Origin: Nocardioides dongkuii
GTDB taxonomy: Bacteria > Actinomycetota > Actinomycetes > Propionibacteriales > Nocardioidaceae
Direction of reading: 5' to 3'
Assembly: GCF_014127485.1 (NCBI RefSeq)
Contig: NZ_CP059903.1
Span: 1,240,001-1,304,000, forward strand
DNA length: 64,000 bases
Shown here: piece after piece, positions 8,727 to 12,099 of the stretch
Position numbering within the stretch: the stretch's first letter is position 1
Layout: the number at the start of each line of letters is the position of its first letter
Position numbers and translations under genes: made by a program
Notes under the pieces: generated by a model
What the model saw: the letters and a program-made list of their open reading frames with translations, nothing else
Told to the model about the DNA's origin: nothing
The model's database searches: none

Positions 8727-10337
8727 GTGACGACGACGCAGACGGTGGTGGGTGACTACACCCTGCTCGCCAAGATCGGCGAGGGCGGGATGGGCGTGGT
8801 CCACCTCGCCCGGCGTCCCGACGGGCAGCGCGTCGCGCTCAAGGTGCTGCGCACCCACATCGTCGGTGACGACGAGGCGCGCGCCCGGCTGGCCCGCGAG
8901 GTCGGGTCGCTGCGCCGGATCCGCAGCCGCTGGGTCGCCGAGATCGTCGACGCCGACCCCTGGGCGCCGGTGCCGTACGTCGCCACCCGCTACGTCCCCG
9001 GCCTCTCCCTGCACGACCACGTGGTCGACGAGGGGCCGATCACCGGCCACGACCTGATGTGGTTCGCCGGGTGCCTGGCCGAGGGGCTCGCCTCCGTGCA
9101 CGGCGCCGGCGTCCTGCACCGCGACGTCAAGCCGTCGAACGTGCTGATGGAGGGCCGCACGCCGATCCTCATCGACTTCGGCCTGGCGCGGGTCGCCGAC
9201 GACCCGAAGCTCACCCACGCCGGGTGGCTGCTCGGCACGCCGGGCTACCTCGCCCCCGAGATCCTGTACGGCGAGGACGCGACCGCCGCCTCCGACCTGC
9301 ACTCCTGGGCCGCGACGGTGGCGTACGCCGGCACCGGGCGCGCGCCGTTCGGCCGGGGCCCGTCGATGGCGATCATGGACCGGGTCCGCCGCGGCGAGCA
9401 CGACCTGACCGGTCTGCCCCCGGACCTGCGCCGGGTGGTCGAGGCCACGCTCGACCCGGACCCGCTGCGCCGGCCCACGCTGGGGCAGCTGCTCGCCTGG
9501 CTGCGCCCGCAGACGACGCAGGCCGGCTCGCGTCGCCCGGTGCCGCCGCCCCCGGTGGCCACCGAGGACGTCTTCACGCTCCCGCTCGCGCTGGCGTCGC
9601 CGAGCGCGCTGGCCGACGCGCCCACCGACCGGGTGCCCGCCGGCTCCGACCTCGGGGCGCCGGCCACGCGGCTGGAGACCGAGCACGTCACGACCGCGAT
9701 CCCGACCTGGGACGACGGCGCGGACGCATTCCCTGCCGAACACCCCCTCGCGTTCCCCCTCGCCCCGCCCCCGCCGAGCTGGGGCGAGCGTGCGCGGCGC
9801 GGCGTCCTCCTCGTCGGCGCCGCGCTGGCCGTCGGCGCCGGCACCGCGGCGTACCCCTGGTGGGTGATCGCCGTCCTCGTCGTGCTCGTCTGGCTGCTGC
9901 GCAGCGGCTCCCTGGCCGCCAGCGCCGCCGGCGACCGGCGCCGGCTGCGCGGCCGGCGGTGGTACGACGGGGCGCGGTTCCTGCTCGCCGCCCCCTGGCA
10001 CATGGTGCGCTCGATCCCCGCCACGCTGGTGCTGGTGCTGTGGAGCGCGGGGCTGGCGGTGGCCGGCGCCCTGGTCTGCTACGCCGCGGCGGCCACCGCG
10101 CCGGTGACGCTCTTCGTCTCCGGCACGGTGCTGGCCGCGTCGCTGTGGACCGGACCCGGCGGCTCCCGGGTGCGCTCGCCGATCGCCCGCGCCGTCCACC
10201 CGCTCGCCGCCGACCCGCGCCGCTGGGTCGCCGCGGTCGTCGTCCTCGCGGTCCTCGCGCTCGGGCTGGGCGCGTTCGCCGAGCGCGGCCCCGACTGGTC
10301 GCCCGCCGACTCCCGGCCGCTGTCGTCGGTGGGGTAA
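8727..10337 (+). CDS. membrane-anchored serine/threonine protein kinase
   Basis: A 536-residue Hanks-type kinase. The N-terminal catalytic domain (about 10-265) has the Gly-rich loop GEGGMG, Lys39 in VALKVL, the HRD motif at 131-133 followed by KPSN, DFG at 150-152 and a GTPGYLAPE activation-segment end. A Pro/Ala-rich linker follows, then at least four hydrophobic helices in the last 190 residues. No PASTA or other sensor domain is seen, so the input signal is unknown. All catalytic residues are intact. The GTG start fits a leaderless message from TACATT. Confidence 0.9.
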   Translation: MTTTQTVVGDYTLLAKIGEGGMGVVHLARRPDGQRVALKVLRTHIVGDDEARARLAREVGSLRRIRSRWVAEIVDADPWAPVPYVATRYVPGLSLHDHVVDEGPITGHDLMWFAGCLAEGLASVHGAGVLHRDVKPSNVLMEGRTPILIDFGLARVADDPKLTHAGWLLGTPGYLAPEILYGEDATAASDLHSWAATVAYAGTGRAPFGRGPSMAIMDRVRRGEHDLTGLPPDLRRVVEATLDPDPLRRPTLGQLLAWLRPQTTQAGSRRPVPPPPVATEDVFTLPLALASPSALADAPTDRVPAGSDLGAPATRLETEHVTTAIPTWDDGADAFPAEHPLAFPLAPPPPSWGERARRGVLLVGAALAVGAGTAAYPWWVIAVLVVLVWLLRSGSLAASAAGDRRRLRGRRWYDGARFLLAAPWHMVRSIPATLVLVLWSAGLAVAGALVCYAAAATAPVTLFVSGTVLAASLWTGPGGSRVRSPIARAVHPLAADPRRWVAAVVVLAVLALGLGAFAERGPDWSPADSRPLSSVG

Positions 10338-10398
10338 GGGGTGCCCGGATCGGGAGACGCCCGCCCGTCGCGGGGCGGGTCGTGGCACCATGGGTGAC

Positions 10399-10425
10399 AT
10401 GCAGCACCGCATCCGCATTCCCTAG
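10399..10425 (+). CDS. putative cimA leader peptide MQHRIRIP
   Basis: An 8-codon frame with two Ile codons (ATC, ATT) separated by one Arg codon, ending TAG, sits 81 bp before cimA. An in-frame ATG at 10390 would give MGDMQHRIRIP. A CACCAT -10-like hexamer ends 7 nt before 10399, consistent with a leaderless leader. Citramalate synthase feeds isoleucine synthesis, so Ile codons before a hairpin and terminator suggest attenuation. The peptide is short and inferred, not proven. Confidence 0.5.
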   Translation: MQHRIRIP

Positions 10426-10478
10426 CGCGTCGAGCACCTTCGACGCGCCGACCTCTCGCACCCACGGGAGGTTTTTTT
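10425..10478 (+). promoter_or_regulatory. attenuator-like hairpin and intrinsic terminator before cimA
   Basis: Two stems follow the leader stop codon. Stem 1 is GCGCGTCGA/TCGACGCGC (10425-10433 with 10440-10448, 9 bp perfect). Stem 2 is ACCTCTCG/CGGGAGGT (10451-10458 with 10465-10472, 8 bp with one G-U pair), followed by a run of seven T (10472-10478), a textbook intrinsic terminator and the only strong T tract noticed in this GC-rich window. It could alternatively just end the kinase transcript. Confidence 0.7.
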
Positions 10479-10506
10479 GTGCCCCGAGATCGACGAGAGA
10501 GAACCG

Positions 10507-12099
10507 ATGGACCTGCACGGCTCGTTCCACGTCTACGACACCACCCTGCGCGACGGCGCGCAGCAGGAGGGGCTGACCCTCTCGGTCGCCGACAAGCTGT
10601 CGATCGCGCGGCAGCTCGACGACCTCGGCGTCGGGTTCATCGAGGGCGGGTGGCCGGGGGCGAACCCCAAGGACACCGAGTTCTTCCGCCGCGCGTCCGA
10701 GGAGCTCGACCTCAAGCACGCGCGGCTCGCGGCGTTCGGCGCGACCCGCCGCGCCGGGGTGCGCGCGGCCGACGACCCGCAGGTCGCGGCGCTCCGCGAC
10801 AGCGGCGCCGGCGTGGTCACGCTGGTGGCGAAGTCGCACGACCGGCACGTCGAGCTCGCGCTGCGCACCACGCTCGAGGAGAACCTCGCGATGGTCCGCG
10901 ACACCGTCTCCCACCTCCGCGCCGAGGGGCAGCAGGTCTTCCTCGACGCCGAGCACTTCTTCGACGGCTACCGCGCCAACCGCGACTACGCCCTCGAGGT
11001 GCTGCGCACGGCGTACGACGCGGGCGCCGAGGTCGTCGCCCTGTGCGACACCAACGGCGGCATGCTCCCCACCTGGGTCGGCGACGTGGTCCACGACGTC
11101 GTCGACACCACCGGGGTGCGCGTCGGCATCCACGCCCACAACGACAGCGGCTGCGCGGTCGCGAACTCGCTGGCCGCGGTCGCCGCCGGCGCCACGCACG
11201 TCCAGGGCTGCATCAACGGGTACGGCGAGCGCACCGGCAACGCCGACCTGGTCACCGTCGTGGCCAACCTCGAGCTCAAGCTGGACCGGCAGGTGCTCCC
11301 GGCCGGGCTGCTGCGCGACGCCACCCGGATCGCCCACGCGGTCGCCGAGGTCACCAACTTCCCGCCCGCGAGCCGGCAGCCGTACGTCGGCACCTCGGCG
11401 TTCGCGCACAAGGCCGGCCTGCACGCCAGCGCGATCAAGGTGGACCCGAACCTCTACCAGCACCTCGACCCCGTGCAGGTCGGCAACGACATGCGGCTGC
11501 TGGTCTCCGACATGGCCGGCCGGGCCTCGATCGAGCTCAAGGGCCGCGAGCTCGGCTTCGACCTGTCCGGGGACAAGGACCTGCTCGGCCGGATCACCGA
11601 CCGGGTCAAGGTGCTGGAGGCGCGGGGCCACACCTTCGAGGCCGCCGACGCGTCCTTCGAGCTGCTGCTCCTCGAGGAGGTCGAGGGCCAACGGCCGTCG
11701 TACTTCGAGGTCGAGTCGTGGCGGGTGATCACCGAGACGCTGCACCACGCCCGGCCCGGCGAGGAGGCGGTCTCCGAGGCCACCGTGAAGCTGCAGTCGG
11801 CGGGCGTGCGCTACGTGGTCACCGGCGAGGGCAACGGCCCGGTGAACGCCCTGGACCAGGCGCTGCGCAGCGCGATCGGCCAGGCGTTCCCGGAGGTCGC
11901 GAAGTTCGAGCTGATCGACTACAAGGTGCGGATCCTCGACCAGGGGCACGGCACCGACGCGATCACCCGCGTGCTCATCGAGACCTCCGACGGCGAGTCG
12001 TCCTGGGTCACGGTCGGCGTCGGCCACAACGTGATCGAGGCGTCGTGGGGGGCGCTGGTGGACGGGCTGACGTTCGGGCTGCGGCGCCAGGGGGTCTAG
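10507..12099 (+). CDS. cimA: (R)-citramalate synthase
   Basis: A 530-residue HMGL-like enzyme condensing pyruvate and acetyl-CoA to citramalate, the first step of a threonine-independent route to 2-oxobutyrate and isoleucine. The N-terminal TIM barrel starts YDTTLRDGAQQEG, with GWPGANPKDTEFF, the metal-binding HAHND region and GYGERTGNADL; the C-terminal third is a LeuA allosteric dimer domain. The length and the GANPKDTEFF motif separate it from 2-isopropylmalate synthase. ATG 10507 is preceded by GAGAGA; a TTG at 10477 lies inside the terminator T run and is rejected. Confidence 0.93.
   Translation: MDLHGSFHVYDTTLRDGAQQEGLTLSVADKLSIARQLDDLGVGFIEGGWPGANPKDTEFFRRASEELDLKHARLAAFGATRRAGVRAADDPQVAALRDSGAGVVTLVAKSHDRHVELALRTTLEENLAMVRDTVSHLRAEGQQVFLDAEHFFDGYRANRDYALEVLRTAYDAGAEVVALCDTNGGMLPTWVGDVVHDVVDTTGVRVGIHAHNDSGCAVANSLAAVAAGATHVQGCINGYGERTGNADLVTVVANLELKLDRQVLPAGLLRDATRIAHAVAEVTNFPPASRQPYVGTSAFAHKAGLHASAIKVDPNLYQHLDPVQVGNDMRLLVSDMAGRASIELKGRELGFDLSGDKDLLGRITDRVKVLEARGHTFEAADASFELLLLEEVEGQRPSYFEVESWRVITETLHHARPGEEAVSEATVKLQSAGVRYVVTGEGNGPVNALDQALRSAIGQAFPEVAKFELIDYKVRILDQGHGTDAITRVLIETSDGESSWVTVGVGHNVIEASWGALVDGLTFGLRRQGV

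Follow-up and report, generated by a model that had tools for sequence, protein, structure and literature searches.

An isoleucine-codon leader peptide and intrinsic terminator ahead of cimA in Nocardioidaceae: a probable ribosome-mediated attenuator on a scaffold reused in Actinomycetes

The trp, his and ilv attenuators of E. coli carry their sensor codons in the 5' arm of stem 1 and have a competing antiterminator. In Actinobacteria, leader peptides with terminators were predicted in 2005 for ilvB and leuS, cimA not being listed (PMC1262725), and several leaders of the ilvB/leuS type have been observed by RNA-seq, again with no cimA leader on the list (PMC8079986). Specifically, S. lividans has leuL2 (MRAVRLLLSEPR) before leuS and ilvL (MRTRILVLGKRVG) before ilvBHC; the leuS leader is transcribed leaderless and is followed by a hairpin and a U run (PMC8079986). 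The ilvB1 attenuator of M. tuberculosis lost its induction when the LVVI codons of the leader were replaced by AAAA, and the logic proposed there is that an antiterminating structure is masked while a ribosome occupies the stop codon and freed when the ribosome stalls (PMC13236596). For the Corynebacterium ilvB-II motif, in which the upstream frame spans the P1 hairpin ahead of the P2 terminator, an antiterminator formed by the P1 loop and the terminator 3' arm has been proposed (PMC10272879). In the ilvB and leuA leaders of S. coelicolor, the effects of codon changes deviate from the prediction of classical attenuation (PMC1262725).

Here we consider a leader of this general kind ahead of cimA, the gene of citramalate synthase, in Nocardioides dongkuii (Table 1; the window is the whole 64-kb stretch of DNA that was analysed, G+C 74%); no earlier report of a cimA leader or attenuator was found in the open-access literature. 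A first-pass annotation of the window had proposed an isoleucine attenuator at this place, and its reading of an 8-codon frame with two Ile codons agrees with the sequence. It put a 9-bp stem at the stop codon and an 8-bp stem before seven T: the position of the former is right, the 5' end of stem 1 being the G of the leader TAG, and the T run is as described, but the helices have 10 bp (counting the terminal G-U) and 9 bp, respectively. The T7 at 10472 is the sole run of at least six T or six A across the window; the annotation had noticed no other strong terminator with a T tract. The start of the element was placed at 10390, which is an upstream in-frame ATG; the spacing of the CACCAT hexamer favours 10399 instead. 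Both hairpins are present in the RNAfold structure of 10399-10507 (-35.4 kcal/mol, z -2.0), and the combination of an Ile codon, one further codon, a stop and a hairpin of at least 8 bp starting at that stop occurs once when both strands of the window are scanned. Recurrence at the equivalent place in relatives puts the leader element far beyond chance. The window copy is slightly decayed: it reads Ile-Arg-Ile (IRI, not III), the middle Ile codon having been lost.

Table 1. Features of the cimA leader region, with positions in the window
Feature	Position	Strand	Details
-10-like hexamer CACCAT, inferred promoter	10386-10391	+	7 nt 5' of the leader start codon
Leader peptide frame MQHRIRIP-TAG	10399-10425	+	ATG CAG CAC CGC ATC CGC ATT CCC TAG; two Ile codons
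Sensor codons ATC CGC ATT	10411-10419	+	in relatives mostly ATC ATC ATT
Stem 1	10425-10448	+	arms 10425-10434 / 10439-10448, loop 10435-10438; 10 bp including a terminal G-U
Intrinsic terminator	10450-10478	+	hairpin 10450-10473 (9 bp), T7 at 10472-10478
cimA, citramalate synthase	10507-12099	+	TIGR00977 at 642 bits (cut-off 450); ATG at 10507

CimA was located in 177 of 200 Nocardioidaceae genomes, and 120 upstream regions were taken, of which 119 were readable. A terminator together with a frame containing at least two Ile codons is present in 111 of these 119. The typical layout is a -10-like hexamer 6-7 nt ahead of a short frame that holds two or three Ile codons and then, in most cases, a single codon before TAG; a G+C stem starts at the stop, and the terminator follows. 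Codon statistics were drawn from the 109 relatives captured by a single pattern anchored on the last Ile codon: the codon immediately before this anchor specifies Ile in 94% and the one at -2 in 72%, compared to a background of 2.8% Ile in cimA. Relatives thus keep both the frame and its Ile codons, as the first-pass annotation had expected of an attenuator. One codon past the anchor, TAG follows in 97 of the 109 leaders, and in the leaders that have no TAG there the frame extends into stem 1 while the Ile codons stay in place. A scan with one genome per species gave 42 places, all in Nocardioides or other actinomycete genomes, with a cimA N-terminus no more than 420 nt away in 39; one of the remaining three is cut by a contig end.

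The eight cimA upstream regions from which the device is absent count against an attenuator and can serve as natural controls. In several of the losses (including L076 and L100), the leader and terminator are gone and the promoter-like hexamer is apparently kept; one genome (G076, L050) retains a relic frame, VPHLTRPRAAAR, without Ile codons and without a terminator; and in two others (G018 and G058; L067 and L111) cimA lies directly 3' of a gene resembling a branched-chain aminotransferase (ilvE-like).

Both stems covary in the Nocardioidaceae, which was the second expectation of the first-pass annotation. In an alignment of 72 relatives, 95.3% of cells are paired (40-58% in slid controls), and 90 cells are changed on both sides as compared to 18.4 in shuffles. 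Stem 1 has five pairs with changes on both sides, the terminator has three, with 99.3% of its cells paired, and the top covarying distant column pairs are pairs of these two helices. The terminator arms are near-invariant and show a strong asymmetry, with pyrimidines in the 5' arm and purines in the 3' arm. The GCGCG base of stem 1 scarcely varies either, and the conservation of the stem base and of the terminator arms exceeds the needs of pairing.

In 104 of the 109 relatives, a [CT]ANNNT hexamer precedes the leader start, at a distance of 6 nt in 51 and of 7 nt in 53. A sigma-70 promoter scan of the locus gave no match, and the actinomycete -10 required a separate spacing test. Because the hexamer spacing of 6-7 nt fits a start at the leader start codon, the RNA probably begins at 10399 and the frame would be leaderless. 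The first-pass annotation had named a start of cimA transcription downstream of 10478 as speaking against its reading; the predicted start lies upstream.

The device extends beyond cimA. Two models were used in searching, R1, made from the cimA copies alone, and the broader R2. In the same genome, R1 found a second copy at C1:2637720-2637817 (L162), with the leader MRSALLLT-TAG before leuS (TIGR00396), and R2 found a third at C1:1219419-1219529 (L202), some 20 kb upstream of the window, whose leader, MLQDILVRTRRAS, enters stem 1 and precedes a frame bearing an ilvB motif. R1 had matches in 110 of 149 genomes of the order. In the class, R2 (E up to 0.001, the E-values being rough and some tens of distant matches having been inspected) found at least one copy in 222 of 297 genomes and in 99 of 114 genera; in family f22 genomes it found leaders near-identical to those of S. 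lividans before leuS (MRAVRLLLSGPR) and ilvB (MRTRILVLGQRVG). Among the 67 leaders with an identified downstream gene, assigned by sequence motif and in a subset confirmed with NCBIfam, the sensor runs contain 69 Leu and 2 Ile before leuS, 69 Ile, 18 Val and 8 Leu before cimA, and 19 Leu, 17 Val and 10 Ile before ilvB. To judge from the leaders inspected, a single scaffold is reused class-wide, with the sensor codons swapped to suit the downstream gene, and common descent of the copies appears likely. The genes behind it include cimA, leuS and ilvB, often within one genome, so that the swapped-codon copies make up natural matched sets for testing amino-acid specificity.

The cimA leader has the sensor codons, the stem 1 that follows 4-5 nt on, and the abutting terminator of the actinomycete leuS/ilvB scaffold. 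It resembles leuL2 and ilvL of S. lividans as a short leader with end-product codons, and leuL2 also in the hairpin, the U run and, probably, the leaderless start; it differs in that it would sense Ile before cimA, whereas those leaders precede leuS and ilvB. With the Corynebacterium ilvB-II motif it shares a leader frame, a first hairpin and a terminator as the second. The M. tuberculosis ilvB1 leader is similar in its branched-chain codons and terminator, and its masking logic fits the geometry of the cimA leader; that leader, however, is 166 nt long, is not described as leaderless, and is drawn with a mutually exclusive terminator and antiterminator, whereas in the cimA leader the two helices are compatible in their pairing. 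The E. coli attenuators, too, have a leader rich in end-product codons and an intrinsic terminator before the gene.

The geometry was assessed in 171 sequences, near-relatives included, whose folds show two helices. Stem 1 follows the last sensor codon at a distance of 4-5 nt in 147 of them, and the gap between stem 1 and the terminator is 0-2 nt in all 171 minimum-energy folds, which tend to close small gaps; in the covariation-based alignment it is 1-2 nt in 71 of 72. The textbook reach of a ribosome is 9 nt beyond the A-site codon, and this value was assumed here. In the window leader, a ribosome with such a reach leaves the ten-nucleotide 5' arm of stem 1 wholly free when at the first Ile codon, but covers four of its nucleotides at the second and all ten at the stop. 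Therefore, stem 1 can form at an early stall and not at the stop.

Taken together, the conserved frame, its Ile codons and the covarying stems in relatives bear out, at the level of sequence, the isoleucine attenuator first suggested for this place. The leader contains codons for the end product, an intrinsic terminator stands before the gene, and the gene belongs to the matching pathway; very probably, then, the cimA leader is a ribosome-mediated transcription attenuator by which isoleucine supply sets cimA expression. The leaderless leuS leader of S. lividans (PMC8079986) and the effect of the codon replacement in M. tuberculosis ilvB1 (PMC13236596) speak for this reading as well. Against it count the failure to find an antiterminator, the lost middle Ile codon of the window copy and a result from a related leader: the S. 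coelicolor ilvB leader was reported to be insensitive to changes of its codons (PMC1262725), so that some leaders of this kind depart from classical behaviour. Transcription would start at or beside the leader start codon, and a ribosome would translate the eight codons. With charged tRNA-Ile, it would reach TAG, and the intrinsic terminator would halt RNA polymerase before cimA; with uncharged tRNA-Ile, it would stall at the Ile codons and read-through would increase, a direction that we infer from the codon choice and the pathway. The geometry points to stem 1 as the structure of the starvation state, which would be free at the stall and covered with the ribosome on the stop. If the reading holds, cimA, whose product catalyses the first committed reaction of isoleucine synthesis via citramalate, joins the leader-peptide-controlled genes in Actinomycetes.

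We infer a switching step that connects the position of the ribosome to termination, and for this step we can offer only a tentative, rather doubtful proposal: a steric switch, common to the class and devoid of an antiterminator, in which free stem 1 hinders the closing of the lowest terminator pairs. The hindrance would act at the polymerase exit, stem 1 being free when a ribosome is absent or has stalled at the sensor codons, and a ribosome on the stop would cover the whole 5' arm of stem 1 and thereby permit termination. That an abutting helix has such an effect on terminator closure is our hypothesis.

The alternative for the same step is a classical switch of the E. coli type, with stem 1 as the 1:2 protector whose 5' arm is covered by the stalled ribosome, so that its 3' arm or its loop, once freed, can pair with the terminator and act as antiterminator. 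The general layout is similar, and a loop-to-3'-arm antiterminator is what has been proposed for the Corynebacterium ilvB-II motif (PMC10272879). In the cimA leaders, the stem-1 loop and the terminator 3' arm form a slightly better duplex than shuffled arms do (mean z -0.72). However, tests by covariation, folding, duplex energy and arm swapping revealed no mutually exclusive antiterminator, just as none could be drawn in the first-pass annotation, and the Corynebacterium pairing is unsupported here. The G-test over all alignment columns shows no third covarying helix; 98-100% of sequences keep the terminator as their best fold after removal of the RNA upstream of the ribosome edge, set at four positions; and the putative antiterminator arms of a species pair no better with each other than with those of another species (p 0.13 and 0.62), whereas stem 1 and the terminator, as positive controls of the arm swap, both pass (0 of 2000 permutations). 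Moreover, a ribosome at the first sensor codon falls short of stem 1, and the sensor codons precede this stem rather than lying within its 5' arm as in E. coli. We therefore consider a classical switch unlikely. The absence of an antiterminator from a deep alignment also makes the puzzle of the S. coelicolor ilvB and leuA leaders (PMC1262725) a testable one.

Other readings dispense with the attenuator altogether. A metabolite-binding riboswitch or a protein-binding RNA, instead of a translated leader, might account for the conservation of the GCGCG base and of the terminator arms; it is very improbable, given that the leader element has no Rfam match at curated score, T-boxes and riboswitches included (two tRNAs are the only matches in the window), that there is no conserved unpaired core, the stem-1 loop ranging from 2 to 19 nt among relatives, and that the conserved codons keep to the reading frame and differ according to the gene downstream. 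The terminator 3' arm could also be a Shine-Dalgarno sequence for another short frame or for an extended CimA, as arms of the AGGAGG type are followed 4-9 nt on by ATG, GTG or TTG in most relatives; yet these starts are spread at random over the three frames of cimA (39/32/31), their stops fall anywhere, seven relatives have none, and the spacing between the T run and the conserved CimA start ranges from 19 to 126 nt, so that this reading is highly improbable. Finally, an ordinary terminator of the kinase transcript with a short frame by chance, an alternative already mentioned in the first-pass annotation on account of the kinase gene that ends at 10337 on the + strand, 113 nt 5' of the terminator, deserves hardly any credence, since the kinase was matched beside cimA in just 16 of the 29 nearest relatives, the device stays with cimA in family, order and class, and the Ile codons and their spacing to stem 1 are conserved.

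Several minor observations concern the spread of the scaffold and its codons. One leader on the same scaffold, MKHLLLIESARH (L233), has the run LLLI before a 2-isopropylmalate synthase-like (leuA-like) gene, which suggests that leuA, too, is served in some lineages. Two low-scoring R1 matches (L180 and L201) look like chance. A divergent copy with Leu-Ile codons (…GELIS) in Propionibacteriaceae-like genomes (G228 and G264; L195 and L196) precedes a 2-dehydropantoate 2-reductase-like gene. A rare codon is usual at the last sensor position, namely CTT in 22 of 25 leuS leaders and ATT in 73 of 109 cimA leaders; cimA of the window itself uses ATC only.
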